Source of the DNA: Haloferax sp. Atlit-12N
GTDB lineage: Archaea > Halobacteriota > Halobacteria > Halobacteriales > Haloferacaceae
NCBI RefSeq assembly: GCF_003383095.1
Contig: NZ_PSYW01000002.1
Span: forward strand, 930,001 to 994,000
DNA length: 64,000 nucleotides
Direction: 5' to 3'
Made by a program: the position numbers and the translations under genes. The notes under the pieces were generated by a model, which worked only from the letters and a program-made list of their open reading frames with translations, had not been told where the DNA came from and did no database searches. Positions within the stretch are counted from its first letter, which is position 1. Every line of letters starts with the position of its first letter. Positions 21,925 to 61,533 of this stretch are shown here, one piece after another.

Positions 21925-22051
21925 GGGTTGCGGTCCTGAGCGGTGCCGAATAAGGTTTCTTATCCGCGGACGGCCTCGGCCGCGAAGCGGTCTGACGAGC
22001 GCGCGGCGAACCCGCGACAGGCCCATAGTCGTTGGCCGACAATCGTGAACT

Positions 22052-44009: not shown

Positions 44010-44021
44010 CGATAGTGCCTC

Positions 44022-44946: not shown

Positions 44947-45120
44947 CTTAACCAACAGCATATCTCGTCTGGCGGAGTTGTTGGTTAAGAGAACACAGGC
45001 TCGCTCCCGTGTACTTCTCAGCGCCTCTATCTTCTGTTTTCGGAGAGTGCGGGGTCAGTATCGTATGAATTTGAGGAGTAGAACAGTTCTCTGGCGTCCC
45101 GAAGCCGACCTGTGCTCTCT
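44947..45120. repeat. Composite repeat A
   Basis: A 174-bp gene-free structure. It opens with an inverted pair CTTAACCAAC (44947-44956) and GTTGGTTAAG (44980-44989). Then the 23-bp sequence appears twice as an inverted pair: GAGAACACAGG at 44989-44999 and its partner CCTGTGCTCTC at 45109-45119. The two ends can pair, making a long stem. Copy B at 61351-61533 has the same order and spacing with changed bases. The right arm is a perfect 24-bp inverted match of 48142-48165. Confidence 0.8.
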
Positions 45121-45184
45121 AAGAGTTTATTTCATGGTTTTGTGGTTGGAAAGTTTTATAAGGGTGGGGCACATATGTAGGGAT

Positions 45185-45490
45185 ATGAGTAAGAAAGTTG
45201 GCACTTCCGATGCACGAATCGAACTCGAAACAGTAGACCTCGCCCGAGAAAAAGCCGACTCAGTTGACTACCTCAACGAGTACCTCCTCGTCGCCGAGTG
45301 GACCACACCACGAGGATACGAGCAAACAGCCACAATCACTTGGGATTGTAGGGAAGGTGCGTGGGCGGTCGCAACTATCGACGGTGACGAACGACTTGTC
45401 AAGCTCTACGACGACTTCGACGGCGCTCTCGACCGATTCGAGGATTGTCTGGAACAGGCGGAGAAGAACAAGTCCGTCGCCTACGCCTAA
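45185..45490 (+). CDS. Small acidic protein opening the regulator operon
   Basis: 101 residues. A beta-alpha-beta type chain (LLVAEWTTPRGYEQTATITWDCREGAWAVATIDGD) ends in a helix KLYDDFDGALDRFEDCLEQAEKNK. Start at 45185, 25 bp after a clean TATA (TTTTATAAG at 45151-45159), so the transcript is leaderless. It heads a same-strand operon to 48137. Unknown function. Confidence 0.65.
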   Translation: MSKKVGTSDARIELETVDLAREKADSVDYLNEYLLVAEWTTPRGYEQTATITWDCREGAWAVATIDGDERLVKLYDDFDGALDRFEDCLEQAEKNKSVAYA

Positions 45491-45530
45491 GCGTGCTGGC
45501 TACACGAGGGTTCGATTCCTTCGGCGCTCC
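45491..45530 (+). other. T-arm-like intergenic hairpin E2
   Basis: Starts right after the stop of the preceding gene: GCGTGCTGG, then the hairpin GAGGG-TTCGATT-CCTTC, then GGCGCTCC. The stem has five pairs including one G-T. AGCG (45490-45493) can pair with CGCT (45525-45528) around it. The next gene starts 50 bp later. Confidence 0.6.
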
Positions 45531-45580
45531 TATACACCACCGAGAAACTCGCTATGCTCTAAAGACGGGAGAATCAAACT

Positions 45581-45916
45581 ATGAGTACGAAACAATTCAA
45601 CACTCACGGAAGTAGCACAGACAACTCAGTAGCAATCTCAGATAATCTCGTCAACGCCAACTCACAGGACGGCGTGTTCATCTATCGAGACGGCGACGAC
45701 CTCGCTATCGAGTCACCTGTCCAGACTGCAGAGTTCCACTTGGACGAGTTGGTCTTCATCTACGAGGGACACCTCGATGTGTTTGAGGCCGTCTTCGAAT
45801 CTGCAGGAGAGATTCACGAATTCTTCTGGACGCCACAGGGTTTCGAGGTGCTTGTCTACTACGCAGGCGAGCGGCACACAGTCCGATTCCTCATCCAAGA
45901 GGGTGATGCGTTATGA
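45581..45916 (+). CDS. Small protein of unknown function
   Basis: 111 residues, soluble, strand-rich: MSTKQFNTHGSSTDNSVAIS, FIYRDGDDLAIESPVQTAEFHLDELVFIYEG, then FFWTPQGFEVLVYYAGERHTVRFL. Its stop overlaps the cold-shock gene by 4 bp, with an in-gene ribosome-binding site GAGGGTGATG. No family recognised. Confidence 0.6.
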   Translation: MSTKQFNTHGSSTDNSVAISDNLVNANSQDGVFIYRDGDDLAIESPVQTAEFHLDELVFIYEGHLDVFEAVFESAGEIHEFFWTPQGFEVLVYYAGERHTVRFLIQEGDAL

Positions 45917-46158
45917 GTCAATTTCAGTTCGAAGGCGTGGTTGACTTCTTCAACGACACAGGTGGCTACGGTTGGATTTCCAACGAAGTCCTCGATGAAG
46001 ATGTGTTCTTTCACATGCAGGATATTGGTGGCCCTGACCTCGCTGAAGGACAGCAGGTGTCGTTCGAGTATGAGGAATCAGAGAAAGGCCCTCGTGTGAC
46101 TAACATCGAGCGGCTCTCCAATCCCGACGACCTTGACGCCGAGGGTGATGAGCGATGA
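45913..46158 (+). CDS. Cold-shock domain protein
   Basis: 81 residues. FEGVVDFFNDTGGYGWISN and VFFHMQDIGGPDLAEGQQVSFEYEESEKGPRVTNI match the CspA fold with the RNP1 (GYGWI) and RNP2 (VFFHM) strands. It binds single-stranded nucleic acid and could act as an RNA chaperone or antiterminator. Chromosomal haloarchaeal Csps are common, but here it belongs to a mobile operon with a winged helix and a TBP homologue. Confidence 0.85.
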   Translation: MSQFQFEGVVDFFNDTGGYGWISNEVLDEDVFFHMQDIGGPDLAEGQQVSFEYEESEKGPRVTNIERLSNPDDLDAEGDER

Positions 46159-46370
46159 TTCGCAAGTACACGCAGCGGGACTATGTACACATGTCCGTGA
46201 TGCGGGTGCGTGATTGGGAGTTCAACGCCCGAGATATCCAGACCACCATCGCTGACGACTACGACACAGAAGTCTCGATGGAGACGATTCGAAGTGTCCT
46301 CAAAACGCTCAGAGAAGAAGGTCTCCTGGAACTGACGGACGACGGCAATCACTACAAGCGTAACTTATAG
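46155..46370 (+). CDS. Winged-helix DNA-binding protein
   Basis: 71 residues. NARDIQTTIADDYDTEVSMETIRSVLKTLREEGLLELTDDGNHYKRNL is a full winged helix with recognition helix at about residues 40-53 and the wing at the end. It overlaps the cold-shock gene by 4 bp. Probable local transcription regulator. Confidence 0.75.
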   Translation: MIRKYTQRDYVHMSVMRVRDWEFNARDIQTTIADDYDTEVSMETIRSVLKTLREEGLLELTDDGNHYKRNL

Positions 46371-46413
46371 GCGTGCTGGTGCTACTCAGGCGGTTCGATT
46401 CCGCTATCGCTCC
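46371..46413 (+). other. T-arm-like intergenic hairpin E3
   Basis: Fills the whole gap between the winged-helix stop and the zinc-finger start. GCGTGCTGGTGCTACTCA, then hairpin GGCGG-TTCGATT-CCGCT (five pairs, one G-T), then ATCGCTCC two bases before the next ATG. Its exact fit in the gap suggests it acts on the mRNA, for example in processing or translation of the next gene. Confidence 0.6.
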
Positions 46414-46415
46414 TT

Positions 46416-46715
46416 ATGTCAGCGAAAAAATTCCGACTGACGGTTGTAACGACTACCAGAGAAAACGGCTACGACTGGAACATCGTCGAGTGTCCAGAGT
46501 GTGGTGAAAAAATCCAACAGCGCCACATCGAGGATGAGGGACGGTGGTTCCACGAGGACTTCCAAGAGGATGTGTGTCCTGCTTGCGACCAGGCGATGAA
46601 GATTGGTGACGGCCAAGACGACGAAGATGGAGATGAGGATAACAGAATCACGATGCCGACCATCAACAATTACGGCTACCCTGACCACGGAGGTGATGCT
46701 CCTGATGCAGTATGA
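46416..46715 (+). CDS. Zinc-finger protein
   Basis: 99 residues. CPECGEKIQQRHIEDEGRWFHEDFQEDVCPACDQ gives a four-cysteine zinc site. The C-terminus ends GGDAPDAV, exactly like the next gene, because the last 27 bp are a direct repeat. Probable nucleic-acid or protein-binding factor of the regulator operon. Confidence 0.7.
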   Translation: MSAKKFRLTVVTTTRENGYDWNIVECPECGEKIQQRHIEDEGRWFHEDFQEDVCPACDQAMKIGDGQDDEDGDEDNRITMPTINNYGYPDHGGDAPDAV

Positions 46716-47176
46716 ATCTCAAAAGTTACATCGTGCCAGTCGGATTCATACTCCTCTTCATCTCGTTAAGCGTAGCTAGTGTCGCTACTGGAGACCCATC
46801 GGTAAGAATCTCTCACTTAGGAGAGGCTGACGAGTTGTGGAACGACCTCGATAATTATGACGGCACAGTTGTTCTCGTCACGCTCGAAGAACCGTTAATC
46901 AAGAACGGATATACTGTCTATCGAGTTGATGACGGAGAGCGATTAGAACCGAGAACAGGTGCTGTTGAAAATCAATATCTGTTCGAGGCTGATGATGACA
47001 TAATCATCACGAACGAGTATACTGGCAAGAAGTGGGCTTTCAGAGTCCACGAACATACTGATTATAGCCCGTTCCCATACTACGGCGACTACGACTATGA
47101 GAACAACTCTGCACCGTGGGAAGGACAAAACTCTTCAACCAATTCAATCGGAGGTGATGCTCCTGATGCGGTATGA
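46712..47176 (+). CDS. Exported or membrane-anchored protein
   Basis: 154 residues. An N-terminal helix YIVPVGFILLFISLSVASVATG is followed by an outer domain (LWNDLDNYDGTVVLVTLEEPLIKNGYTVYRV) and an Asn/Ser-rich end, also GGDAPDAV. It sits between a zinc-finger protein and the TBP homologue and overlaps both by 4 bp, odd company for an exported protein. Unknown family. Confidence 0.6.
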   Translation: MNLKSYIVPVGFILLFISLSVASVATGDPSVRISHLGEADELWNDLDNYDGTVVLVTLEEPLIKNGYTVYRVDDGERLEPRTGAVENQYLFEADDDIIITNEYTGKKWAFRVHEHTDYSPFPYYGDYDYENNSAPWEGQNSSTNSIGGDAPDAV

Positions 47177-47730
47177 GTGTCGAAGCAGAGTATGAGGTTG
47201 AAGAAACCTTAGCAGTTGGTGCAGGGGAGTTACCTGTTGAAGTTGACCTCGAAATTCTCGCAGACACTATCGGTGTTGAATATGACTTAGAGAAGCCTGG
47301 ACTCGAAATCCGACCCAAGAAATCGAGACTCCCGTTGATGACTTTGTTCACCAGCGGGCGACTCATCCTGAGAGCAGGCTCGGAAGACGAACTGTTTGAG
47401 GAATTTGAAGGGATTCTCGACGGCTTCGAGGCCATCGGACTGGTGGACGAAGACCAACGAGATGATGTTGAGTTCGAGGTCTCGAATAGTGTCCTGCTCG
47501 CCGATGTTCCAACCTCGTTCAACCTCTCAACGCTTGCAGTTGGTCTCGGGTTCCAGAACGCAGAATATGAACCAGAACAACACTCTGCGATTATCTACAC
47601 AACAGACGAGTACGACTGCACCTTCTCGATATTCCACAACGGTAAGATAACCGTGGCTGGTTCACCGTCAGCAAATAGGGCCGTTGAATCGTTTGAGAAC
47701 TTCCTCGGGGAACTCGAAATCTGGATGTGA
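47173..47730 (+). CDS. Divergent TATA-binding-protein (TBP) homologue
   Basis: 185 residues with the two-fold TBP repeat. Repeat 1 has VDLEILADTIGVEYDLEKPGLEI and MTLFTSGRLILRAGSEDEL; repeat 2 has FNLSTLAVGLGFQNAEYEPEQ, SIFHNGKITVAGSPSANRAV and a helix FENFLGELE. In cellular TBP each repeat has two Phe that kink DNA. Here the first one is gone in both repeats (deleted before PGL; His in EPEQH), and the second stays (LFTSG, IFHNG). It may recruit transcription to element promoters or block the host TBP. Assignment rests on motif reading alone. Confidence 0.75.
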   Translation: MSVEAEYEVEETLAVGAGELPVEVDLEILADTIGVEYDLEKPGLEIRPKKSRLPLMTLFTSGRLILRAGSEDELFEEFEGILDGFEAIGLVDEDQRDDVEFEVSNSVLLADVPTSFNLSTLAVGLGFQNAEYEPEQHSAIIYTTDEYDCTFSIFHNGKITVAGSPSANRAVESFENFLGELEIWM

Positions 47731-47822
47731 CGATGGGTGTGTTTGATACTATCTGGAGTGGGTTCGCCTGACAATCCTGACTCTGTATAGCGTTAAGTGG
47801 GGCGGGGACTCACCATCGGTCC

Positions 47823-48137
47823 ATGACTATCTCCCACGAGCCGAGTATGGACGCCCGTGAGCCTGCGGACGATGACTTCGAGACCTTCGAGCAGTTGGAG
47901 CCAGGAGATACAATCAAATTCTTAGAGTGGCCCGTCGAGGCTCTGAGCGTAATCGGATGGGAAGAGGATGACGAGTATGGAGAGGTCGTTCGAGTCGAGG
48001 TCAACGACAAGGAGTCCTTCATCTATGAGGTGGACGGCAATCTCTGGAACTACTCTCCTGAATACGAAGGCGAGAATAATCCCTTCCCAGTCCAGAATCT
48101 CGTCCATGTTGAGGAAGTCGAAGCAGAAACAGAATAG
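47823..48137 (+). CDS. Small acidic beta-rich protein
   Basis: 104 residues: FETFEQLEPGDTIKFLEWPVEALSVIGWEEDDEYGEVVRVEV then FIYEVDGNLWNYSPEYEGE. This reads as a small beta barrel, perhaps SH3-like. It is separated from the TBP homologue by 92 bp with its own AT-rich CTGTATAGCG, so it may have its own promoter. The 23-bp element sequence follows 5 bp after its stop. Confidence 0.6.
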   Translation: MTISHEPSMDAREPADDDFETFEQLEPGDTIKFLEWPVEALSVIGWEEDDEYGEVVRVEVNDKESFIYEVDGNLWNYSPEYEGENNPFPVQNLVHVEEVEAETE

Positions 48138-48141
48138 CGAC

Positions 48142-48165
48142 AGAGAGCACAGGTCGGCTTCGGGA
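48142..48165 (+). repeat. Solo copy C of the 23-bp sequence
   Basis: GAGAGCACAGGTC followed by GGCTTCGGGA lies between the end of the regulator operon and the end of the convergent gene at 48181. Over 24 bp it is the perfect reverse complement of 45097-45120, so the pair encloses the regulator operon (45185-48137). It could be a recombination site, a terminator-linked RNA signal or a protein site. Confidence 0.75.
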
Positions 48166-48180
48166 GAACAGAGAAAGCCT

Positions 48181-48693
48181 CTAGTCGCCGCTCTTTACCT
48201 TCTTTACATACTCGACTACATCCACGACTCCGTTCTCTTCAAGCGCCCACCGAATCCCGTTCAATCGTCGGTCGTGTTTCTGGATGACTTCAGCTGCCTT
48301 GTCAATCCGAGAGCGGAGTGAATCGAGAAGTTGCTTGTTCGCCTGCGTCTTGTTCTCTACCGCACCCAAGCGTTCTTCCAGCTCATCAATCCGTGCCTCA
48401 AGTGCAACTCGTTCAGGGTCACTTTCAGACGACTCGCCGAACACATCGCCAATCAAGCCCTGTTGAATCTCCGACTCGCCCTTAGCCGTGAGGTCGTGGA
48501 CTCGGACTTCTGTTCCGTTGTCTTCTCGATACTCATACTCAACGAGACCTTCTGGTTCGAGCTTCTGGCGTACTGAATAACCAATCGCATCTGTGTCGAT
48601 GCCCGTCGATGATTTCAGGTCGGTCGTGGACAACGGCTCGTCGTTCTTGTACAACGCTTCGAGGATGAGTTTCTCTTCAATTCTGATTTTCAT
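48181..48693 (-). CDS. Winged-helix protein with coiled-coil tail
   Basis: 170 residues from the ATG at 48693 (MKIRIEEKLILEALYKNDEP). The first 70 residues are a winged helix (PLSTTDLKSSTGIDTDAIGYSVRQKLEPEGLVEYEY). Residues 95-150 form a heptad coiled coil (ALEARIDELEERLGAVENKTQANKQ). Likely a dimeric transcription regulator. It is divergent from the ATPase-like gene at 48889, with AT-rich promoter sequence between. Confidence 0.75.
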   Translation of the reverse strand: MKIRIEEKLILEALYKNDEPLSTTDLKSSTGIDTDAIGYSVRQKLEPEGLVEYEYREDNGTEVRVHDLTAKGESEIQQGLIGDVFGESSESDPERVALEARIDELEERLGAVENKTQANKQLLDSLRSRIDKAAEVIQKHDRRLNGIRWALEENGVVDVVEYVKKVKSGD

Positions 48694-48888
48694 AGTGTCC
48701 CAAGCTTGTGTCTCTAACCCTACAGGAGTAACTGAACGCCCGCAAATATCGATAGGCAATTCAGACTGATTCAGAGACCGCAACGCTCAGTCCGACATAA
48801 TTAGACCGCCTAAGACCCGTGTAGAGGAGAGGGAGAAAGTGACAATACGACAATAGTTTAATAAGGTTATGTGACAATATATTTAGAT

Positions 48889-49770
48889 ATGAGTTCTGGT
48901 TTAAATTTCAACTATGAACGAGAAGTAGAACAGTTACGAATAGCGATTGAATTCCACGAACAACAGAAAGGACGATTAGAAAGTCGGATTAGAGAGCTGA
49001 AGAACGAGTTAAAATCTGGAAGAGGCAAACTCTCTCTAGTAACAGGGGAGATGGGAGCAGGTACAACAACCTATGGTGTCCACATCGCTGAAAAAGATGC
49101 CAATCCTATCATCTCGAATCTTGAATCTCTAGAAGATGCATACTACGCAGTATCTTGGAGAGGAGTAGAAGCAATTCTCGAAGAACATCCAGAACAACAG
49201 TTCACGATTCTAATCGATGACTGCGAGAGTTTGCGTCACGAGTCGGATGGGTTTGTCCAGCAGGTGATTAAGCAAGGTCATCACATCATACTAGTTCCAA
49301 GGCATCTCAAAGATGTACATCCGTGGCTCATCGACACAGCTGATGCAGAGTATCATCTCCCCGAGCGTGGGACAGTCCAGTATATTCCAGCAGGTAGTGA
49401 TGAAGTAGAATATACAGCATCTGTAGGAACTCCACGCCGCTCGTTCAATACTTTCGAGATTCCACGGTTCGATTTCAGAAAACCACCGCAAGCGTATCCG
49501 AGAGCTGAATTTGAAGATGAAGACGATAGCGATGATGGCCCGCTAGACGATATCTTCAGCGACGACAAGATTCCGCCGCAATTCCATCTCGATGAGTTAG
49601 AACGAGAACTCGATTACAATCTTGGTCAGGTGGATGGATTCCACGACCTCGACTGGAAGTCCAAGTGCGACCTTGCTCAACTTGCAGTAGACCACGACCT
49701 CAACCGTAGTGAGTTAGAGACTGTCCTCGACCTCAATCAGGGTGACGACGCCCGTGGTGTCTCGTGTTAG
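48889..49770 (+). CDS. ATPase-like protein with degenerate Walker A
   Basis: 293 residues. A short coiled coil (residues 12-45) precedes a P-loop-like TGEMGAGTTT (52-61), where the essential Lys is Thr; the Asp pair of Walker B (ILIDDCES) is kept. ANPIISNLESLEDAYYA matches VILSNITSL of the ATPase at 42248-43642, so it is a paralogue, probably unable to hydrolyse ATP. A C-terminal acidic linker and a helical end follow. The ATG at 48889 is about 30 bp after TTTAATAAGG; an in-frame GTG at 48871 is less likely. Confidence 0.7.
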   Translation: MSSGLNFNYEREVEQLRIAIEFHEQQKGRLESRIRELKNELKSGRGKLSLVTGEMGAGTTTYGVHIAEKDANPIISNLESLEDAYYAVSWRGVEAILEEHPEQQFTILIDDCESLRHESDGFVQQVIKQGHHIILVPRHLKDVHPWLIDTADAEYHLPERGTVQYIPAGSDEVEYTASVGTPRRSFNTFEIPRFDFRKPPQAYPRAEFEDEDDSDDGPLDDIFSDDKIPPQFHLDELERELDYNLGQVDGFHDLDWKSKCDLAQLAVDHDLNRSELETVLDLNQGDDARGVSC

Positions 49771-50252
49771 AGAAATTCCTCTTCTATTTCCAACGCACGG
49801 TGTGGACTTTGCTTGGTGTGGTGATGCTTCCTATCTCTGGGACTAAGCATCACGCTCGGGGTAAACTCATCAGCATCATCGACTCCTTGAACAGAGCAAC
49901 AGCTGGTGAAGAATTGTATATTCAAATCGTCGCTGCAACAGACGAGCAAGAACGACAGGCTCGTCTCTTAATTCGGGACTTTAACGAACTAGCGTATCGT
50001 GCTGATAAACTCAAAATCGTCTCTGACTCCCGAGCCGATGTGCAGATTCGTATCGAAGAGAATTGGAACACGACCATAAAGACACGCCTCGATGGACGAG
50101 AGAAAGAGTGGTGGATTGGAGCGTTCCCACTTCCAGCGATTCGAGCAGGTGAAGCACCAGACGAGTACCACGGGTTTGAATTGGATGAGATAGATGCAAC
50201 TCCGACTACTTTAGACGACCTCGATTTCAGCGAGGGTGATGACTCATGTTAG
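49764..50252 (+). CDS. Membrane-associated protein
   Basis: 162 residues. An N-terminal helix FLFYFQRTVWTLLGVVMLPISG is followed by a soluble alpha-beta part (LYIQIVAATDEQERQARLLIRDFNELAYRADKLK, WWIGAFPLPAIRAG). A GTG start at 49764 overlaps the stop of the ATPase-like gene, with a GGTGAC ribosome-binding site just ahead. Unknown family. Confidence 0.6.
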   Translation: MLEKFLFYFQRTVWTLLGVVMLPISGTKHHARGKLISIIDSLNRATAGEELYIQIVAATDEQERQARLLIRDFNELAYRADKLKIVSDSRADVQIRIEENWNTTIKTRLDGREKEWWIGAFPLPAIRAGEAPDEYHGFELDEIDATPTTLDDLDFSEGDDSC

Positions 50253-50918: not shown

Positions 50919-51241
50919 TTGGGGTAATCGTTGCTCTCCTGTCCCTTGGCGGCGCTGCCATCCTCGCATACAGACGAGATGAGGAACCCGATAGTAGCGA
51001 TATTATTGTCGTGGTCGGTGTCGAATACGATGAGGTTGAACAGGTTTTCGACTTTGAGGAAGAAGATATGAAGATACGAGGTTGTGCGTCTGAGAGGTAT
51101 TTATTCGAAGCTCTGCAGGCAACTCGTCAGAACGAAGGTCGGTTAATCATCCGAGTTCAAACCGTATTTGAGGTTCCTGAGTTTGCGATGTGGAGAGGTG
51201 CAGATGTTGTCATCGTCGGTGGTGATGGTGGTATCCGATGA
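50915..51241 (+). CDS. Small membrane-anchored protein
   Basis: 108 residues: one N-terminal helix VIVALLSLGGAAILAYRRDEE and a soluble domain with DIIVVVGVEYDEVEQVFDFEEEDMKIRG and RLIIRVQTVFEVPEF. The last 15 bp repeat the end of the preceding gene (GGIR). Unknown function. Confidence 0.55.
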   Translation: MIGVIVALLSLGGAAILAYRRDEEPDSSDIIVVVGVEYDEVEQVFDFEEEDMKIRGCASERYLFEALQATRQNEGRLIIRVQTVFEVPEFAMWRGADVVIVGGDGGIR

Positions 51242-51363
51242 GTTACTCATCCTCTGCTACTTGGGACGCAGAAGCGTATGCAGGCGGACTTCTCGTCGGT
51301 GGAGTATTCTTCGTGGGCGTGTGCGTGGGTGCAGGCGTCTCGTATGTATCCACTCGCCTGTGA
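51238..51363 (+). CDS. Very small membrane protein
   Basis: 41 residues: MSYSSSATWDAEAYAGG then a single helix LLVGGVFFVGVCVGAGVSYV. The ATG overlaps the preceding stop (ATGA) and a GGTGATGG ribosome site is in place, which supports translation. It is the last gene of the operon; the 23-bp sequence D follows 9 bp after the stop. Confidence 0.55.
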   Translation: MSYSSSATWDAEAYAGGLLVGGVFFVGVCVGAGVSYVSTRL

Positions 51364-51372
51364 ATCCGCTTT

Positions 51373-51393
51373 GAGAGCACAGGTCTGCCTCGG
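51373..51393 (+). repeat. Solo copy D of the 23-bp sequence
   Basis: GAGAGCACAGGTC followed by TGCCTCGG. It is the reverse complement, with one change in 21 bp, of the right arm of composite repeat B (61512-61532). It lies at the end of the 48889-51363 operon and just ahead of the promoter of the next gene. Confidence 0.75.
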
Positions 51394-51458
51394 TGACAGT
51401 CATCACAGGCGAAACACTCTATTTCTCACACAAATTATATGCTGGCAAGATGCCAGGT

Positions 51459-51800: not shown

Positions 51801-51849
51801 CCAGCTGCTTGTCCAGTAGTTACAAAACACCTGAACAACATCTCCGCAT

Positions 51850-52593: not shown

Positions 52594-52595
52594 CG

Positions 52596-54005
52596 ATGGC
52601 GGATAAGTGGACTAAACTCTCGGCTCTCGCAACTATCATCTTTATTGGTATTCCTACTGCCGCTGGTTTCTACCCGCCTCTCTTGGCAGGATTCGCTGAC
52701 CAGCTCTTAGTAAATTCAGTACTTGGTTGGATGCGAATTGGAGGTGTCGTCGTTCTCGTACTTCTTCTGTTGAGAGTTGGAGTGCGGGAAGAGTGGTTTC
52801 CATCCCAGGATAAGAAAGACTGGCTGAACAGAGTGGAACGGACTGCGAACGGCGTTCAAAACGCCTGGGAGTATTCTGGGAATCATCCCGACCCCGATGA
52901 CCGAAAGAGGACTGTCGAGAAGATGAACGAGCGTGTCGAGGAGTTGGAAAAGCACAGGAATCACCAGAAGGCCACCGAAGAGATGAAAGACGCTATGGGT
53001 GAGATAATCTCCGACTGGCGTGACTGTCGAGACCTCATCGCCTCAGCTCCGTTCACTCACTACTACTCGATGCGGGCGTTGTATATCGAAGAAGAAGCTG
53101 ACCGACTGAAAGAGCTACTTGAGGTAGAGCGACAATCGCTCCCACAACGACTTCTCAACACGACCGCCACGAGAGTCAAGAACGAGATTGAGCGGGTACG
53201 ACGGACGCTGTACGGCTTTCGCTCTAAGCCGCTCCCCTACGAGGTTTACAAACGCCTTCAAGACGAGCTCCCGAAACCCCGCCTACAGAAAATCACGAGT
53301 GGCGCTCACTATCTCTTCGTTCTCGATAATCCTTCAGACGGAGCTATCTCAGCCGAGCTGGTATCCTTCGAGGAAGAGGCTGATGAAGAGCAATTTAACA
53401 TCTATCAAGTTCGCCACGACTACAAACACAGTCCCATCTCCATCGACACGCTCCAAGGGTATACTGTGACGACTGGGATGTTACTCACACGCTTAGAAGA
53501 TGCTGATTTGGTCGATACGATTCCAGTTCAGTTCTTCACCCCAAGCGGACACGGCCTCAAAGTATTCGAGGACGATGAGTCAGCAATTCGCCATCCCGAC
53601 CCACGAGAAGAGCCTGAGAAGATTGTTGGATGCATCGAAACCGACGGTATCCTCTGGCGTGGGTTCGCAGACCTCACCAGCGACGACGGAGCTGCTGAAT
53701 TGGATGTAGACACCGACCCGAAGTGCCCAGATTGCCAAACTGATATGGAACAGATATCAGGCAAAGAGTGGGAGTGTCTTAATTCGAACTGCGGTTACTC
53801 AGCGTCAACAGAACTTCGACCGTACAAAGAAGCTGAGAGCCTGTTCAAGAAACACATCGAGCGAATCCTGAACAGCAACGACGAAGAGTACTCGCTGGAG
53901 AACCTCATCGAGAACATCGATGGTGAAGTAACAGGCGATAAGATTTGGCGAAGATATCACGAGGTCGTTGATGATGAAGAAGTTTCCATAGACTGTTTCC
54001 ACTAA
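52596..54005 (+). CDS. Membrane-anchored zinc-ribbon protein 2
   Basis: 469 residues. Two N-terminal helices, a coiled-coil-like part (residues about 70-190, KKDWLNRVERTANGVQNAWEYS), a beta-rich centre, then the same C-terminal module as its neighbour: IVGCIETDGILWRGFADL, CPDCQTDM, CLNSNCGYSAS, EEYSLENLIENIDGEVTGDKIW. The N-terminal half is related to 44022-44873. It starts 2 bp after the preceding stop. Unknown function. Confidence 0.65.
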   Translation: MADKWTKLSALATIIFIGIPTAAGFYPPLLAGFADQLLVNSVLGWMRIGGVVVLVLLLLRVGVREEWFPSQDKKDWLNRVERTANGVQNAWEYSGNHPDPDDRKRTVEKMNERVEELEKHRNHQKATEEMKDAMGEIISDWRDCRDLIASAPFTHYYSMRALYIEEEADRLKELLEVERQSLPQRLLNTTATRVKNEIERVRRTLYGFRSKPLPYEVYKRLQDELPKPRLQKITSGAHYLFVLDNPSDGAISAELVSFEEEADEEQFNIYQVRHDYKHSPISIDTLQGYTVTTGMLLTRLEDADLVDTIPVQFFTPSGHGLKVFEDDESAIRHPDPREEPEKIVGCIETDGILWRGFADLTSDDGAAELDVDTDPKCPDCQTDMEQISGKEWECLNSNCGYSASTELRPYKEAESLFKKHIERILNSNDEEYSLENLIENIDGEVTGDKIWRRYHEVVDDEEVSIDCFH

Positions 54006-54019
54006 TATCTCATACCAAT

Positions 54020-54127
54020 AAAGCTGCTAATTAGCAGGAATCTTAGCAGCTGCTAACTTAGTGTGATAGTTGTTTGGGTAGTAGATAGTAAAGCTGCTAA
54101 TTAGCAAGAAAGTTAGCAGCTGCTAAC
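54020..54127. repeat. Palindromic AT-rich repeat cluster 2
   Basis: Two units (54020-54057 and 54090-54127) of AAAGCTGCTAATTAGCA plus TTAGCAGCTGCTAA, 70 bp apart. The first is identical over 38 bp to the unit at 35366. They fill most of the 250-bp gene-free stretch ahead of the replication genes. Possible helicase-loading origin or operators for the AbrB- and RHH-type proteins just downstream. Confidence 0.85.
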
Positions 54128-54256
54128 ATAGTATATTTTAGCATAGATAGTTCTGTTCGGTTGTTCGGTTAATCGTCTTCGAATACTATATTGTCGTTAT
54201 ATTCGTGTCATCCTTCCGATGGTTTAATAGGGTGTCAACATATACATATATGTAGG

Positions 54257-54478
54257 ATGACTCAAGAATCCGATAACTCACGAGAAGTCGTAGAGACAGA
54301 AAAGAAGATGATGTCCGAATACGGGCAGATAACAATCCCGAAAAAGTGGCGTCCTGATGACGCTGAAGCGGTCGAACTCCGCCTATACGATGATGGTACA
54401 ATCGAAATCGAGATGCAGACTTTCGTCCCAACAGCAGATTCTGAGAGTGTAGTCGCTCGTGGAGGTGATGACGAATAA
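54257..54478 (+). CDS. AbrB/MazE-like DNA-binding protein
   Basis: 73 residues. MMSEYGQITIPKKWRPDDAEAVELRLYDDGTIEIEMQTF is the swapped-hairpin AbrB pattern. Such proteins are antitoxins or transition regulators; no toxin gene follows, so a repressor or replication-control role is more likely. A TATA-like ATACATATATG is at about 54242-54252; the start was set at 54257 because a longer frame would run through that promoter. Confidence 0.75.
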   Translation: MTQESDNSREVVETEKKMMSEYGQITIPKKWRPDDAEAVELRLYDDGTIEIEMQTFVPTADSESVVARGGDDE

Positions 54479-55019
54479 ACTCACAGCAAACCCGTCCGTC
54501 CCGATGGATGAAGAGTTCGTCAAAGAACTTGATGCAGTCAAAGAACGGCGTGGCTACTCTTCTCGTGCCGCTCTCATCCGAGATGTACTCTCGCAGGCAC
54601 TCTCTCCTGGCGACCTCGAAGACGAAATCGCTCGGTTAGAAGATGAAATTGATTCGCTTGAACAACAGAAAGAGAGCATCGAGCAGGATATCAAGTCTAA
54701 GCAGGCTCTCCTCGAACACAAGCGAGAGCAGCTCGAAGAACAGGAGCAGCGAGAGCAGTCGGCAGAAGAAGAACTCGAAGCGGCGCTGAACACAGTAGCG
54801 GCGTATCTCGCTGTTGGTGACGAAGAACTTGATGTGACGGTAGCCGCCCAATCTTCAGTCGAGACTGTTCTCCAACTCGAAGACGAGTGCGACTCCGTAG
54901 ATGATGTGCTTGACCTCGCTGATGAGCAGACTGATGAGATTGAGCCTGCAGACCACCTCCCAGACAAAATTGTAGAATCGACTTCCGAACAAGACCTTGC
55001 AGACAAATACAACCTCTAA
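54468..55019 (+). CDS. RHH protein with long coiled coil
   Basis: 183 residues. The N-terminal 40 (VPMDEEFVKELDAVKERRGYSSRAALIRDVL) are a ribbon-helix-helix/CopG-like domain. Residues 50-105 are a strong coiled coil (DEIARLEDEIDSLEQQKESI), and the rest is acidic. The start lies inside a perfect ribosome-binding site GGAGGTGATG, coupled to the AbrB-like gene. Possible initiator, partition or copy-control protein for the MCM gene behind it. Confidence 0.7.
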   Translation: MTNKLTANPSVPMDEEFVKELDAVKERRGYSSRAALIRDVLSQALSPGDLEDEIARLEDEIDSLEQQKESIEQDIKSKQALLEHKREQLEEQEQREQSAEEELEAALNTVAAYLAVGDEELDVTVAAQSSVETVLQLEDECDSVDDVLDLADEQTDEIEPADHLPDKIVESTSEQDLADKYNL

Positions 55020-55023
55020 AACT

Positions 55024-57024
55024 ATGATTGACTATCTAACTAAATTCGACTTCGAACGAAACGAAGGACTCGTACAGACTATCGACCAACTCTTTGATGA
55101 AGACCTCGCCACGGTTGAAGTGGACGATGTGACGGTAACAGTCACACTCGACTTTGACACTCTCAGCGAGTTGAACGAAAACCTCCCACGGCTATTCAGG
55201 AACGACCCAGATGGTGCTCTTTACAACCTCGAACTCATCGGGTGTGAGCGTGCTGAAGAACAGGGATTGATTCAGTCGGATGATATCAAGTACACGAACA
55301 TCGTCGTGGAAACCGAACAAGACGGAAAACGAGTTGATGAACTCACTACCGCTGACCACAACCGCCTCGTGCAGATTGATGCGACCGTGGAACAGGTGTA
55401 CGCCAAGAAGCCAATCACTATCGACACGGTATGGCGGTGCGTTGTCTGTGGTACTCGAAACAGCGTCAGCCAGTACACGGTAGACGGACAAATCGATAAG
55501 CCGCACTCGTGCGTTGCGAAAGACTGTAACAACACGGCGCAGTCTAAGTTCAAAATTATTGATGAGGAGGAGGTGGAGCAATCTCGCCAGCTCATCAAAC
55601 TCTCTGATGACGCAACTGCTGACCGACAAGGTGAGGATATCCTCGCTCACCTCTACCCACCGCTTCTCGATAGCGTCGAGGTCGGCGAGACCGTCACAGT
55701 CACGGCCATCCCTCGCACTTACAGAGAACAGAAGAACGACGCTGTGAAAGAGCGAGAACTTGTCATCCTTGGAATCGACAATGAACGAGAAACGCTCGAA
55801 ATCACAGCCGAAGAACGAGAACGATTCGAAGAAATCGTTGAATCAGGTGATGCTGAAGAACTCTTGCTTGAGTCTCTCGCTCCACATATTGTTGGTGATG
55901 AGATTGAGGACTTCAAGCAAGGAGTCCTCGCTGCTATCGTATCTGGTGATGTGGAGTGGATGGACCGTTCCGACCTCAACATCATCGGGATTGGTTCACC
56001 TGCAGTCGGGAAGACAAAGATTCTCGAATTTATCGAGGAGTCAGTTGCTCGCTCGAAGATTGCTGAAGGTAGTGGGTCAAGCAAAGCAGGACTGCTTGGG
56101 TTTGCAATGGAAGATAAAGAAAAAGGTGGCTGGTACGCTCGAACGGGACCGTACTTCCGATACCGAGATGTGATGATGGATGAGCTCGCCGACATGAATT
56201 CAGAAGAGATGCAGGGGATGAAGTCGGCACTTGAACATCAGTCGTATACAATCAACAGCGGTGATGTAGACCAGACTCTCACTACTACTGGTTCCTTCAT
56301 CGGCGCATCAAATCCTATCGATGGGAAATTCAACGAACATGAAGCGTTTGATGACCAGTTTGCCATCGACCCTGCACTTCTCAGCCGATTTGGATTGGTG
56401 TTCATCATCGAGGATAATCAGGATGAAGAAGCAGATAAGACGAAGGCGACGGCGATGATGAGTCGGTGGCAAGAAGCCGCCGCTGACGACCCGAACCACG
56501 ACCGACTCTCCAAGTCAGAGTTCGGGAAGTTCGTTGAATTCCTCAAAGAACACGAGCCTGCCCCGCCTGCTGAGGTAGAAGTCGAATTCATCGCTGAAGA
56601 GTTCGCTTCCCTACGGGCCGACGATAGCGACCACATCGACCTCCGAAAACTGCCAACGATTATGCGGCTTGCGACAGTCTTCGCCCGCCTCAACGGACAC
56701 GACCGAATCGAACGAGATGATATGACTCGTGGAGCAGAGATGCTCATCGATTCCGTCAACCGCCTCGATGAAGCGAACATCGACAAGTCGGTACTGTGGA
56801 CTGGTGAGAACTCCGAGCAGATGGAGGCAAAGGAGAAGGTAGTCGATGCTGTTGAGGCGCTCCACCACGCTGAGGATGACGACCCGACTCAAGAGGAAGT
56901 CGAGCGACGGATTGTGATGAACCACCAGCTCGACCAGGAGACGATTCGGTGGGCGGTTGAAAGTCGCCTCGATGATGGAACAGTCTACGAAGATGAGGAT
57001 GGCGTACTACACACGCAGAAGTAA
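55024..57024 (+). CDS. mcm: MCM replicative helicase
   Basis: 666 residues. The N-terminal domain has a zinc site (C139-x2-C142, C163, C168). The AAA+ core shows Walker A GIGSPAVGKT (Lys330), Walker B MMDELADM (Asp386-Glu387), sensor 1 GASN (430) and the arginine finger SRF (Arg455). A winged helix closes the protein (QEEVERRIVMNHQL). It unwinds DNA at forks. The N-terminal 110 residues differ from cellular MCM, as expected for an element-borne copy. The start at 55024 directly follows the preceding gene. Confidence 0.93.
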   Translation: MIDYLTKFDFERNEGLVQTIDQLFDEDLATVEVDDVTVTVTLDFDTLSELNENLPRLFRNDPDGALYNLELIGCERAEEQGLIQSDDIKYTNIVVETEQDGKRVDELTTADHNRLVQIDATVEQVYAKKPITIDTVWRCVVCGTRNSVSQYTVDGQIDKPHSCVAKDCNNTAQSKFKIIDEEEVEQSRQLIKLSDDATADRQGEDILAHLYPPLLDSVEVGETVTVTAIPRTYREQKNDAVKERELVILGIDNERETLEITAEERERFEEIVESGDAEELLLESLAPHIVGDEIEDFKQGVLAAIVSGDVEWMDRSDLNIIGIGSPAVGKTKILEFIEESVARSKIAEGSGSSKAGLLGFAMEDKEKGGWYARTGPYFRYRDVMMDELADMNSEEMQGMKSALEHQSYTINSGDVDQTLTTTGSFIGASNPIDGKFNEHEAFDDQFAIDPALLSRFGLVFIIEDNQDEEADKTKATAMMSRWQEAAADDPNHDRLSKSEFGKFVEFLKEHEPAPPAEVEVEFIAEEFASLRADDSDHIDLRKLPTIMRLATVFARLNGHDRIERDDMTRGAEMLIDSVNRLDEANIDKSVLWTGENSEQMEAKEKVVDAVEALHHAEDDDPTQEEVERRIVMNHQLDQETIRWAVESRLDDGTVYEDEDGVLHTQK

Positions 57025-57040
57025 CACTAAGTGATTCACT

Positions 57041-57157
57041 ATGACACGACACGATTCAACCCAAAACGACAACGACAACCGAGAAGAACAGTTCAACGAA
57101 TACGATTTCGAGGAGTTGAGTGAGCGAGGAAAGCGAGTTCATCTTGCCTTCCTTTGA
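57041..57157 (+). CDS. Very small hydrophilic protein
   Basis: 38 residues: MTRHDSTQNDNDNREEQFNE then YDFEELSERGKRVHLAFL. It starts 16 bp after the mcm stop, with GTGATTC but no strong ribosome site. Amino-acid use fits the element. It may be a real end gene of the replication operon or a chance frame. Confidence 0.4.
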   Translation: MTRHDSTQNDNDNREEQFNEYDFEELSERGKRVHLAFL

Positions 57158-57183
57158 AGAATTCTCTTTTTCTTATTTTGCCA

Positions 57184-57274
57184 AGTTGCTAATTGCTGAG
57201 ATTGTTGCTAATTAGCAGCTTTGTTAGAAACAGTTGATAGACCTGACCTGAATAGCTCAACGAGTTTAGCTAAA
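57184..57274. repeat. Palindromic AT-rich repeat cluster 3 and TTTAGCTAAA palindrome
   Basis: Part of a 247-bp gene-free stretch (57158-57404). GTTGCTAATTGC and GTTGCTAATTAGCAGC (57184-57220) are a looser form of the cluster 1 and 2 units. TTTAGCTAAA, a perfect palindrome, is at 57265-57274 and again at 63981-63990. Clusters 2 and 3 thus bracket the replication genes. The methyltransferase promoter should also lie here. Confidence 0.65.
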
Positions 57275-57404
57275 CTATCAAATAAACTATCTATATTGTC
57301 CTGGAGTGTCTGTGTCTTGATGTGCCAGGAACACGATTTCAGCAACAGCGAAAAGTGCTTAACGGATACCGCCAACCATCTTCACAAGTGACTACGCTCC
57401 ACGC

Positions 57405-58748
57405 ATGACTAATTCACATCAATCTACTATCGACGGTGTAGTAGCCGACGACGATAGTCTGGAGTCTTATAACTGGACTTTCGAAAAGTCGGATACGCAG
57501 TACCTCACGCACGGGCTTCACAACTATCCTGCTCGGATGATTCCGAAGATTCCCGATACGCTCCTAGGACACTACAAGCAAACTGGTGTCATCGAGGAGG
57601 GCGACCTCGTGTACGACCCGTTCAGCGGGAGCGGGACTACCGCCGTCGAGGGGAGACTCCACGGTCTCAACGCCGAAGGGAACGATATCAATCCGTTCGC
57701 CGTGATGCTGAGTGAGGCGAAGTCGATTCCGTTAGAGCGTGGCGGTCTGAGTGAAGCTCGGGATGCTCTGGTTGACGGCCTGTCGGAAGACCTCCGAGAA
57801 GTTCGTGAGGCATACGACGAGTCGGGTGAAGTCGAGTGGCTAGAGATGCCTGATGTTCGGGACGGATGGTTCCCCGAACCGCAGCTCCACGAGTTGACTG
57901 CGCTTCGTGACCGTATCGATTCGGTTGACGATGAGTTTGGAGAGGCGTATGCCCGCTTCTTCCGTATCGTTCTCTCCCATACGACCCGTAAGGTATCCTA
58001 CCAGCGGAACGGCGAGTACAAGCGTTACAGGCTCGCCGAGGAAGACCGAGAAGACCACAATCCCGATGTGGAGGCTATCTTCGAGAAGAAGCTAGAGCAG
58101 AACATGGAGAAGATGCGGGAGTACAGTAATCGTGTTGACCACGACCTCGACACGACCATCCACTACTCTGACTCCCGAACTGCAGTTGAGGATGTGGGTG
58201 AAGACCAGGCGGATATCGTCATCACCTCGCCGCCATACGGCGACCACCAGACCACGGTTGCCTACGGGCAGTTCAGTCAAGACCCTGCGCTGTTGACTGG
58301 AAAAGTGACTTATGACGAGATGAAGGATGTGGACAAGACGGGTCTCGGTGGGCGGTATGATGTTCTCGAACCACTCTCCGAACTCGAAGAGTACTCCGAG
58401 ACGCTCAAAGTCACCCTCGACACGCTGAGAGAGAAGGACGGGCGTGCAGAAGATGCGATGGACTTCTTCAGAGATTACTACGCCGTGATGGAACAGGTGG
58501 CCGAAGTCACCAAGTCAGGTCAGCCTGTGGCGTGGGTCGTCGCCAATCGGACGATGAGCCGAGTGAACATCCCGACGCACCTCATCACTCGGGAACTCTG
58601 TGAACACATCGGCTACGAGTTTGATGTTAATCTCCCGAGAGAAATCCCGAACAAGACGCTGCCGTGGGAGAACGCCCCTGAGAACATCGAGGGCACGAAA
58701 GGGAATCTGATGGCGAACGAGAATATCGTTATTCTCAGAGCGCCGTAA
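57405..58748 (+). CDS. DNA N4-cytosine methyltransferase (type II)
   Basis: 447 residues. Motif X region NWTFEKSDTQYLTHGLHNYPARMI, motif I VYDPFSGSGTTAVEG (70-84) and motif IV ITSPPYGDHQ (about 274) give a beta-class order with SPPY, typical of N4-cytosine methylation. It is convergent with a MvaI/BcnI-type endonuclease 9 bp away. By analogy with M.MvaI it should protect a CC-W/S-GG-like site; that site is inference. Confidence 0.88.
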   Translation: MTNSHQSTIDGVVADDDSLESYNWTFEKSDTQYLTHGLHNYPARMIPKIPDTLLGHYKQTGVIEEGDLVYDPFSGSGTTAVEGRLHGLNAEGNDINPFAVMLSEAKSIPLERGGLSEARDALVDGLSEDLREVREAYDESGEVEWLEMPDVRDGWFPEPQLHELTALRDRIDSVDDEFGEAYARFFRIVLSHTTRKVSYQRNGEYKRYRLAEEDREDHNPDVEAIFEKKLEQNMEKMREYSNRVDHDLDTTIHYSDSRTAVEDVGEDQADIVITSPPYGDHQTTVAYGQFSQDPALLTGKVTYDEMKDVDKTGLGGRYDVLEPLSELEEYSETLKVTLDTLREKDGRAEDAMDFFRDYYAVMEQVAEVTKSGQPVAWVVANRTMSRVNIPTHLITRELCEHIGYEFDVNLPREIPNKTLPWENAPENIEGTKGNLMANENIVILRAP

Positions 58749-58757
58749 CCGCCGAGT

Positions 58758-59531
58758 TCAGAAGTCGCTGAGTCCTTGCTGTGGGGATTCAGTAACTGTT
58801 GCGTCCCGACCGATACCGTCGAGGAGCTGCGTTCGGGTTTCGAACGCTCGGTCGAGTTTACTCGTGTCCTTGATGCGGAACGCTGTGCCGTGGTTGCGTG
58901 CGCCGCCCGAGTCCCGCAGGTGCATCCGCAGGTCGATGGTGATGATGGACTCTCGAATCAGGTTCAGGAACTCGTCGCCGTCGAACCCATCGAGGTAGTA
59001 CGCTTCGTTGTACCAGAAGTGTTCGTCGCCGTCGATGGATTGCGTTGCCGCTTCAACGAGAACCATCTCGGGGAACTTCTCCTCGTAGGTCTCTTGGAGT
59101 AGGTCGAGCGGGTAAGTGGCGATTATGCCATCGTCTTCGTGCTCGATGTGGACGCCTTCCTCGTTCGTGACGGTGCGGAAGCCCTGATTGTTGTACTCGT
59201 CGATGGAGAGTGTGATTTTGAGTGCGGGCCGTCCCTCATCGTCTTCATACCCGTACTTCTCCACGAGCGACGACGCCCACAGTTCACGACTACCTCTCGG
59301 CGGTTCTTTCGTGAACAGCGTCATCATACTCCCCGAGTCTCGGCGGGCGGCTTTCAGCTCGACACCTGCGGCGTCAGGACCAGGGATGTTGTTCTCCTTG
59401 ATACCCAGGAGGTCTTCGAGCGTCTTGCCGATGCCTGTGTCTCCGCTCCGATGGGTTTCGACATACCCCATCTCTTCGATATCCTGAAGGCGGTTAGTGA
59501 AATCCTCGAACGAATCGAAGGTGTTACTCAT
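58758..59531 (-). CDS. Restriction endonuclease, MvaI/BcnI-like
   Basis: 257 residues. GIGKTLEDLLGIKENNIPGPDAAGVELKAARR carries the family active site: Asp53, Glu58 and Lys60 (D-x4-ELK), with FTKEPPRG and LVEKYGYEDDEGRPALKITL behind it, then HFWYNEAYYLDGFDGDEFLNLI. MvaI/BcnI enzymes are monomers that cut CCWGG or CCSGG. The gene is intact. Together with the methyltransferase it makes a complete R-M unit that would defend or stabilise the element. Confidence 0.85.
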   Translation of the reverse strand: MSNTFDSFEDFTNRLQDIEEMGYVETHRSGDTGIGKTLEDLLGIKENNIPGPDAAGVELKAARRDSGSMMTLFTKEPPRGSRELWASSLVEKYGYEDDEGRPALKITLSIDEYNNQGFRTVTNEEGVHIEHEDDGIIATYPLDLLQETYEEKFPEMVLVEAATQSIDGDEHFWYNEAYYLDGFDGDEFLNLIRESIITIDLRMHLRDSGGARNHGTAFRIKDTSKLDRAFETRTQLLDGIGRDATVTESPQQGLSDF

Positions 59532-59646
59532 CCGCTCCAGACTTTAAGCTCAGTTGCTTTAGCTTTTGTCACCAAGTCATCGGCTTGGTGGAAGAGCCAC
59601 AATTCGTGCAGAGCACATAAATAGGGTAGAGCGCAGCTTAGCTCGC

Positions 59647-59781
59647 ATGGGTCCGAACTGCGAGTGTCCTGAGTGCCGTAAGCGCATCAAACCGAAGAAA
59701 ATCAAACAGCACGAGTCGAGCGGCTATTGCTACCATGAGTGCTACAAGTGTAACCAGATTTTCGCTGTGACGCCGACCTGA
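59647..59781 (+). CDS. Small zinc-ribbon protein
   Basis: 44 residues: CECPECRKRIKPKKIKQHESSGYCYHECYKCNQIFAV. Two CxxC pairs and two His give one or two zinc sites. The start follows a run TAAATAGGG at 59618-59626 that can serve as TATA, so leaderless. Divergent from the endonuclease gene; possible control protein of the R-M unit. Confidence 0.6.
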   Translation: MGPNCECPECRKRIKPKKIKQHESSGYCYHECYKCNQIFAVTPT

Positions 59782-59870
59782 TTCTGTTCTTGCGCTGTAT
59801 ACAGCGGACAATATATTGTCGTCTGTGTACACGGAATTGAGCCTATGTGCCGACAGGGTGGGGTCGGGGT

Positions 59871-60377
59871 CTACACGAGCAATCCCTGGAGACCGAGTGC
59901 AACCGCAACCAGATTAGCGGCAAATCCGATGATGTAGAAGAACCAGTTACCGAGGAAACTCCCACTCTTTGTGACGCCGAGTGCGTGCTTGTGCGAGCTA
60001 ATTGGTTTGTACGGGCGCACGCCTGATGGATTCAGTGCATCGCCGATGATGTGATACACGATACTCAGGAAGCCGACGATGAACAATCCAGTCACGGGTA
60101 CAGCGACAGCGACGATTCCAATCTGGTCAAGACCGAACTGAATCACCATCCCGACGCCCGCCAATACTGCACCGACGACTCCCGCAAACCAAATCGTGTG
60201 CGTTGGCCCTCGATGACGCAAGAGTGGGATGACCATATCCTTGTCTGGGACCATCGACAGCATCAGCACTAACACGAGTCCACCGACAGCAAAGATTGGC
60301 CGTCCTGTTTCGAGGAGGAAGTAGGTTATCGGCGAGTAGAGCAAGAGGGCGATTCCTTTGTGTCCTTGACTGTGCAT
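59871..60377 (-). CDS. DUF457/YdjM-like membrane metal-dependent hydrolase
   Basis: 168 residues from the ATG at 60377 (MHSQGHKGIALLL). About five helices, with MVPDKDMVIPLLRHRGPTHTIWF and YHIIGDALNPSGVRPYKP, the conserved His/Asp motifs of the DUF457 (YdjM) family. Family members are often on mobile elements and plasmids. A lipid phosphatase-like role is possible. It follows the small winged-helix gene with 4 bp between. Confidence 0.82.
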   Translation of the reverse strand: MHSQGHKGIALLLYSPITYFLLETGRPIFAVGGLVLVLMLSMVPDKDMVIPLLRHRGPTHTIWFAGVVGAVLAGVGMVIQFGLDQIGIVAVAVPVTGLFIVGFLSIVYHIIGDALNPSGVRPYKPISSHKHALGVTKSGSFLGNWFFYIIGFAANLVAVALGLQGLLV

Positions 60378-60381
60378 AGTT

Positions 60382-60609
60382 TCATAGTTCAACCCGTTTC
60401 AGAGCGTAGCGTTCTTTCGAGGATTCTTCAAGCGGTGCAACAATCTCCATCTCCCTGAGCGCCGAGAGGATGTTGTAGGTCTTCATCTTCGACCAGCAGA
60501 ATCTATCTGCGAGCTGGTCTACGGTTGCCGTCCCGACTCGACGGAGATACATCACGATTAGCTTGCCTGCGTCCGATTCAATCTGAGAAAGTAATTGTTC
60601 TAATTTCAT
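60382..60609 (-). CDS. Small winged-helix regulator
   Basis: 75 residues: IESDAGKLIVMYLRRVGTATVDQLADRFCWSKMKTYNILSALREMEIVAPLEES is a winged-helix (MarR/TrmB-like) domain. It heads a two-gene operon with the DUF457 protein. The 136-bp region upstream to 60745 is AT-rich and shared with the nuclease gene going right. Confidence 0.75.
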   Translation of the reverse strand: MKLEQLLSQIESDAGKLIVMYLRRVGTATVDQLADRFCWSKMKTYNILSALREMEIVAPLEESSKERYALKRVEL

Positions 60610-60745
60610 AAACGAACAGTTGTAATATATTTCTCAATCCCCAAATATGTTGTTGTAGTTATATTTCTCGTGCGCCCGTGTGTTCGTGGTATTCCGTTCA
60701 GGGGAGCACCTTTGGGAACTTATGACAGATTAGTTAAGTGTAGTT

Positions 60746-61327
60746 ATGATTTCTCTTGCGGTTACTGAAGAACTGCGTGAACAGGCACAGAAAGATGGCA
60801 TCGAGGCTGGTGAGGACTATAACAGAACAAAGAAAGAGCGAGACTTCGACCGATATGTCGGAGACCTCGGGGAACTGGCGTTCAAGCAAATCTTAGAACA
60901 AAATACGAATTTCGAGTATAAACACCTCGGCGGAAAGAAAGATGCGGATTTTGTCGTAGAAGGTTTTGAGGTAGATGTGAAGACTCGAACGGTGATTGGT
61001 GAGAATAAGAAAGACCTCATAGTCCCCGCAGACCTCCCAGATGGTTTCCACGATTTCTATGTTCTTCTGCGGTGCGTGTACGCTGAAGATGATGATTTGG
61101 AAGACCTCGACCGACACGAACGAACTATTGAAGCGTTAGAATTCATCGGTCTCTGGAATAAGCGAACTATCGAAGAGAAAGGTGAGTCGTTCAATCCACC
61201 GTGGGTGCAAGGACGGTCTTCAGATAATAATCGATATACAGTCATCTGTGATTACGGGACGCACGCTGACTTGATGGACTTCGCCCCGTTGATGCAGGCA
61301 CAACAGCAAGCACAGCCCGCTGACTGA
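60746..61327 (+). CDS. PD-(D/E)XK nuclease-like protein
   Basis: 193 residues. GDLGELAFKQIL (Glu43) and KKDADFVVEGFEVDVKTRT (Asp68, Glu75, Asp77-Val-Lys79) form the usual PD-(D/E)XK core order. Archaeal viruses and plasmids carry similar single-domain nucleases for recombination or DNA processing. The C-terminus has a Gln/Ala tail. It ends 24 bp ahead of composite repeat B, which could be its substrate; that link is speculative. Confidence 0.7.
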   Translation: MISLAVTEELREQAQKDGIEAGEDYNRTKKERDFDRYVGDLGELAFKQILEQNTNFEYKHLGGKKDADFVVEGFEVDVKTRTVIGENKKDLIVPADLPDGFHDFYVLLRCVYAEDDDLEDLDRHERTIEALEFIGLWNKRTIEEKGESFNPPWVQGRSSDNNRYTVICDYGTHADLMDFAPLMQAQQQAQPAD

Positions 61328-61350
61328 TTCAGTTCTTTTCTCGTGCAACT

Positions 61351-61533
61351 CTTAACCAACAACTCCCCTCCATAGCGTGCTGTGTTGGTTAAGAATCTCC
61401 AGAGAGTACAGGCTCGCCACGGAGTCTTTCTAAGTCGCCCTACCTACGGAATTCGTAGAGTACTAATCTTCTACTGGTTGAACATCGGGAGTAGCGGGCG
61501 TGTGCGTATCCCCGAGGCAGACCTGTGTTCTCT
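61351..61533. repeat. Composite repeat B
   Basis: A 183-bp counterpart of repeat A. It has CTTAACCAAC (61351-61360) with GTTGGTTAAG (61384-61393), then GAGAGTACAGG (61402-61412) and the partner CCTGTGTTCTC (61522-61532). The two 11-bp arms pair through two G-T wobbles where A has an A-C mismatch, so base changes are mostly tolerated by pairing. GGAGTAG and a GCGT-CCC block in the middle are shared with A. It fills the gap between the nuclease and the convergent Tat-protein operon. Confidence 0.8.

Follow-up and report, generated by a model that had tools for sequence, protein, structure and literature searches.

A haloarchaea-wide DNA dyad at the ends of interchangeable gene modules, seen from a composite repeat in a Haloferax integrated element

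The 64,000-nucleotide stretch of Haloferax sp. Atlit-12N considered here (contig NZ_PSYW01000002.1, positions 930,001 to 994,000 of the forward strand; hereafter the window) carries an integrated element with two composite repeats, A and B. A first-pass annotation, made from the sequence alone, had described them as nested inverted repeats accompanied by solo copies, C and D, of a 23-bp arm; it offered recombination sites for cassette inversion or exchange, a plasmid partition or origin structure, or a structured RNA as explanations, and favored selection on structure. The composite repeats and the solo copies were confirmed by their coordinates. However, A and B each combine two unrelated things, a 41-bp dyad and a 131-bp inverted arm pair. 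Through the former, we lean towards the view that A and B are members of a haloarchaea-wide dyad family acting as module recombination sites.

The dyad as a haloarchaea-wide DNA site

The two units of each composite repeat adjoin one another: a palindrome (CTTAACCAAC/GTTGGTTAAG) spanning 43 nt, at 44947-44989 in copy A and 61351-61393 in copy B, is followed by an inverted arm pair that measures exactly 131 nt in either copy. Hence, the common spacing reported earlier holds within each half but breaks down at the junction, where the gap is 0 in A vs 8 nt in B. The palindrome is far beyond chance, with 0 control matches, and within it lies the dyad:

44948..44988, no strand assigned: site A, 41-bp dyad TTAACCAAC-N23-GTTGGTTAA, from a pattern match and the comparison with a related element in genome G346
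61352..61392, no strand assigned: site B, 41-bp dyad, from a pattern match and the G346 comparison

With the outer base relaxed, the motif TTAACCAAC-N-GTTGGTTAA is present in 182 of 293 haloarchaeal genomes, at up to 33 copies each, against a control count of 1. The exact palindrome pattern was recovered from 77 of the 170 genomes of the family, from many named haloarchaea and from 35 viral-contig stretches. These sites cluster on plasmid-like contigs and are also found on viruses and integrated elements. Matches at wider spacings in the viral contigs are scattered and probably due to chance, as is probably the palindrome shared by three loci (L019, L023 and L040) in AT-rich, apparently non-haloarchaeal sequence, the collection searched being very large.

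The geometry of the dyad is strongly constrained. Among 209 non-redundant sites, the length is 41 bp in 92 and 42 bp in 81, and the rare variants differ from this by about one helical turn, at 50-53 bp in the genomes and 29-33 bp in the loci (first counted as 31-35 bp, with the flanking C and G included). The half-sites, (C)TTAACCAAC(A), are identical and inverted, with their centers three helical turns apart and the interior free. The arms are fixed in sequence; at the position immediately beyond the nine conserved bases, mismatches occur freely. In the same 209 sites, there is no excess of pairing inside or outside the fixed arms, complementarity being at expectation; the slight surplus at the first base beyond the arms stems from loci having been fetched with that base fixed. 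Fixed arms and spacing, taken together with a free and unpaired interior, suggest that the dyad is read as DNA by a protein rather than selected as a hairpin. Thus, we infer that it is a protein-bound site presented on one helix face and not an RNA hairpin; selection on structure, as proposed earlier, is not supported in the palindrome.

Dyads mark the ends of interchangeable gene modules

When related loci are compared, homology tends to break at dyads: 123 unique ends lie at most 20 bp from one, vs 25 expected and a maximum of 45 in 200 shifts. A systematic scan for exact junctions between filled and empty loci returned three events, with overlaps of 10, 11 and 11 bp, where the null gave 0 in 300 randomizations. 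In the first (L096 vs L128), the sequence of the empty locus follows that of the filled one as far as the first site's arm, and the match takes up again at the arm of the second site, 6.2 kb away; the others span 11.5 kb (L096 vs G185) and a 1.6-kb pair of nucleotidyltransferase and winged helix-turn-helix (wHTH) genes (G222 vs G309). In these comparisons, the junction falls within the 10-bp arm.

Dyads also delimit alternative cargo at a single place. The ArdC-like/SWIM-type gene interval is empty in one locus (L261), holds a nucleotidyltransferase/wHTH pair in a second (L265) and AbiEi-AbiEii in three more (L079, L147 and L151), with the right flank beginning at the dyad edge in every case; the SWIM-type label here is our reading of a cysteine-rich C-terminus, Pfam giving no match. 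A module of about 0.9 kb comprising the SWIM-type gene, with dyads at both ends, occurs among unrelated neighbors in at least four contexts (L127, L135, L190 and L202/G309). The modules so bounded are often toxin-antitoxin pairs. The AbiEi-AbiEii type IV toxin-antitoxin system is a recurrent cargo between dyads (L052, L065, L079, L147, L151 and L261).

Sites A and B of the window fit this pattern. In the comparison with the related element of G346, the right-hand homology begins again precisely with the right arm of A (44979), and that coming from the left gives out precisely at B's left arm (61361). What is missing in G346 directly left of A amounts to 1.2 kb:

43692..44873, no strand assigned: two-gene segment directly left of site A and missing in the G346 relative (genes gained or lost as far as A)

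As homology breaks at their arms, A and B behave like other dyad sites. We advance the following plausible mechanism for such exchange. A dimeric protein would bind both arms of a dyad on one helix face; a putative recombinase, encoded by the host or the element, would join the arms of different sites; and modules would thereby enter and leave as units, like the dif modules in Acinetobacter plasmids. More tentatively, and with somewhat less confidence than in the assignment of A and B, we suggest a class-wide haloarchaeal cassette exchange, in which an undescribed recombinase joins 41-bp TTAACCAAC dyads and shuffles single genes and toxin-antitoxin modules between viral, plasmid and chromosomal DNA, with a site geometry that is neither that of Xer/dif nor that of attC.

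Several observations weigh against recombination at the dyads. There are only three exact junctions, two with a common empty locus, and the loci, having been selected for carrying a dyad, form a biased sample. No dyad-bounded inversion was seen among homologous module pairs, despite the symmetry of the sites. A census of integrases in site-rich and site-free genomes tied no recombinase to the dyads, and PF00589 genes are just as numerous in a site-free genome of the same genus. Further, 22 of 108 other indels also show overlaps of at least 8 bp, which leaves room for passive deletion between short direct repeats. Hence, passive microhomology exchange at a regulator's site is a serious rival. 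Under this alternative, which we consider possible but the less probable, the dyad is bound by a protein common on haloarchaeal mobile DNA, with a role in regulation, replication, partition or the nucleoid, and modules break there only because the conserved 10-bp arms provide the best microhomology and the dyads are intergenic. Such a site could well be a dyad with helical phasing, and some dyads do lie directly upstream of orc1/cdc6-like genes, just as short repeats do occur at other indels; but the genes neighboring 234 sites fall into as many as 170 clusters, and their arrangement (35 convergent, 78 tandem and 24 divergent) betrays no preference for divergent promoters. Likewise, some tandem sites are only 1-4 kb apart, which would be unusual for an origin or centromere, and microhomology deletion fails to explain how one module comes to be dyad-bounded at both ends in unrelated contexts.

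Some further features of the dyad neighborhoods may be recorded here. Their commonest neighbor, accounting for 26 of 348 flanking genes, is a small acidic protein (start MSYE.PTPP) without a Pfam match, exemplified by L261:13877-14203 with its 25 relatives. Four pairs of identical sites on the same contig were considered as attL/attR and rejected, the identity extending far past the site; these pairs (G309:C6, G271:C4, G271:C5 and G325:C1) are long duplications, probably the ends of unclosed circular contigs. Finally, the dyad is the target of a site-hunting insertion sequence (IS) in archaea. This IS1595-type element of 1,046 bp, with ends CGCTCTTATGTAGA, lies 7 bp outside a TTAACCAAC dyad and in a single orientation in 10 of 10 cases, with an 8-bp duplication in the two cases that could be read (loci with the IS beside a dyad: L058, L086, L104, L112, L122, L124, L157, L158 and L362).

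The integrated element and its 131-bp repeat

The region that holds A and B is an integrated element, some 30.9 kb long, whose insertion point is the 3' end of an infB-like gene:

33153..33167, + strand: attL, 15-bp direct repeat TTCTGGGGGAAGTAG at the end of the infB-like gene
64037-64051 in window numbering (L303:37-51): attR, second copy of TTCTGGGGGAAGTAG, just beyond the window end
33655..34599, + strand: tyrosine integrase of the element (PF00589)

Its ATPase has relatives in His2 and other pleolipoviruses, and the element also encodes an MCM helicase, a methyltransferase, an MvaI/BcnI-type endonuclease, and TBP-like and cold-shock genes. If it is a member of the pleolipovirus group, its size is unusually large. 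The related element in G346 has a 66% identical ATPase; a query with the MCM helicase found no relative in the viral contigs.

The second unit of A and B, the arm pair, is a feature of this element family, and its copies in the window, together with the solo arms, are the following:

44989..45119, + strand: 131-bp element-specific inverted-arm repeat, copy A
61402..61532, + strand: 131-bp element-specific inverted-arm repeat, copy B
48143..48166, + strand: solo arm C, between convergent genes; position kept in G346 (19069)
51373..51396, + strand: solo arm D; in G346 a full 131-bp pair stands in its place (21929-22059)
43361..43383, - strand: solo arm E, inside the ATPase open reading frame (ORF) 42248-43642; position kept in G346 (15585)

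The right arm of A matches C and that of B matches D, as had been claimed, and C and D indeed follow gene ends, beginning 6 nt past the stop of ORF 47823-48137 and 10 nt past that of the 42-aa ORF 51238-51363, respectively. The third solo copy, E, on the minus strand, had been missed; it falls in the acidic linker of the ATPase coding sequence. The arm pattern GAGARYACAGGYY is beyond chance: all 7 of its copies in the 4.0-Mb genome fall inside this 18-kb stretch, vs 0 matches for its reversed control. The search of other genomes proposed earlier did recover the arm repeat in one related element, that of G346, but nowhere else in the 293 genomes, to which pair of elements the 131-bp unit is thus confined; no copy was found in the viral contigs or in other species of the genus.

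The five 131-bp copies in the two elements align over 131 columns without internal gaps. In G346, the full pair is present at D', whereas the partner arm has been lost at A', where the right arm is kept, and at B', where the left is. Hence, pairing is not required in this repeat: sequence has been kept without it, an outcome that the first-pass annotation had itself named beforehand as contrary to selection on structure. The 131-bp pair might be a protein binding site of the element family or a small dispersed repeat, in either case apparently kept as sequence and not as pairing. That it is specifically a miniature inverted-repeat transposable element (MITE) dispersed within the element family seems to us a somewhat doubtful alternative. 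The terminal inverted arms, the five copies in two related elements and the inverted orientation of the G346 copy at D relative to A are what a MITE would present; but no full transposon with such ends and no copies elsewhere in the 293 genomes were found, there is no clear target duplication at A, B or D' as judged by eye, and the gap-free alignment over 131 columns suggests functional spacing.

Far less probable is the idea of a structured RNA or cruciform held by base pairing, despite the perfect 10-bp inverted arms of the dyad. While B folds somewhat better than its shuffled versions (z -2.2), A does not (z -0.9), and neither has an Rfam match; furthermore, the fixed arms show no compensatory change, the outer base mismatches freely, the interior pairs only at expectation and the 131-bp arms have lost their pairing in G346. 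Least credible of all is the inversion of A-C and D-B as cassettes recombined at the 23-bp arm, since, although near-identical inverted arms bound both segments, these are collinear in the G346 relative (A', C', D' and B' in the same order and orientation), the arm pair is found in just these two elements and one arm copy lies within a coding sequence. The earlier notion of cassette-exchange sites was thus nearly right for the CTTAACCAAC palindrome, treated at the time as a side feature, but not for the 23-bp arm.

A different block, inside D-B, is inverted between the two elements:

54184..57230, no strand assigned: MCM helicase block, inverted in the G346 relative, with inverted repeats at its flanks (54002-54132 and 57183-57240)

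The inverted repeats around this block, whose counterpart lies in G346:C1 (L298), are rich in GCTAATTAGC/TTAGCAGCTGCTAA, which is also found near 35.37-35.46 kb. The MCM block with these flanks (54002-57240) is possibly an invertible segment or an origin region.

Comparison with known systems

The motif string of the dyad was absent from the open-access haloarchaeal literature searched, subscription papers and preprints lying outside that search, and the dyad is apparently an undescribed haloarchaeal counterpart of bacterial cassette-exchange sites. In behavior, the nearest system is the pdif/dif modules of Acinetobacter (XerC/XerD), in which, likewise, a replicon carries many short dyads, and the exchangeable modules that they bound are rich in toxin-antitoxin genes. 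The likeness extends to a dedicated IS at a set distance and orientation: members of the IS1202 family insert 5 bp from the XerC box of pdif, with distance and orientation fixed (PMC10132070), and the haloarchaeal dyad has its IS1595-type element at 7 bp with the 8-bp duplication. However, membership in the dif/pdif class was rejected, as the arm-spacer geometry fails: dif and pdif have 11-bp arms around a 6-bp spacer (PMC8371274, PMC10132070), whereas the haloarchaeal arms are of 9-10 bp and lie 21-24 bp apart, with 41/42-bp sites dominating.

With the attC sites of integrons, the dyads share conserved short arms around a cassette-specific interior, a site that travels with the neighboring gene and a crossover in the conserved arm (the three events with 10-11-bp overlap). 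Moreover, the attC core is GTTRRRY, which the GTTGGTT of the dyad resembles. Yet what is recombined at attC is a single strand in folded form, which requires a self-complementary interior; the dyad interior, pairing at expectation, is not, and this identification was likewise rejected. No integron integrase or attI came to light among the genomes looked at, all of which had integrases, with none tied to arrays.

Among haloarchaeal systems, the Orc1/Cdc6 origin recognition boxes (ORB) are similarly dyad protein sites on haloarchaeal replicons, sometimes beside cdc6, as the dyads are, but the latter reach 33 copies per genome and mostly lack a cdc6 neighbor. In the rolling-circle origins of the betapleolipovirus Rep-Arvir type, which lie downstream of the rep gene, the hairpin is conserved and the upstream repeat varies (PMC13107129). 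They recall the present case in joining an inverted repeat and a hairpin in pleolipovirus-related haloarchaeal elements, and differ from it in that the dyad arms are constant across unrelated replicons, with no rep gene tied to them.

Haloarchaeal mobile DNA is strongly mosaic. Were the dyads to be recombination sites, module boundaries in most haloarchaeal genomes would share one mechanism and could be searched for by a single tag, and new modules would come to light, among them toxin-antitoxin and anti-restriction genes. Archaea would then have evolved an equivalent of the pdif modules or integron cassettes of bacteria.

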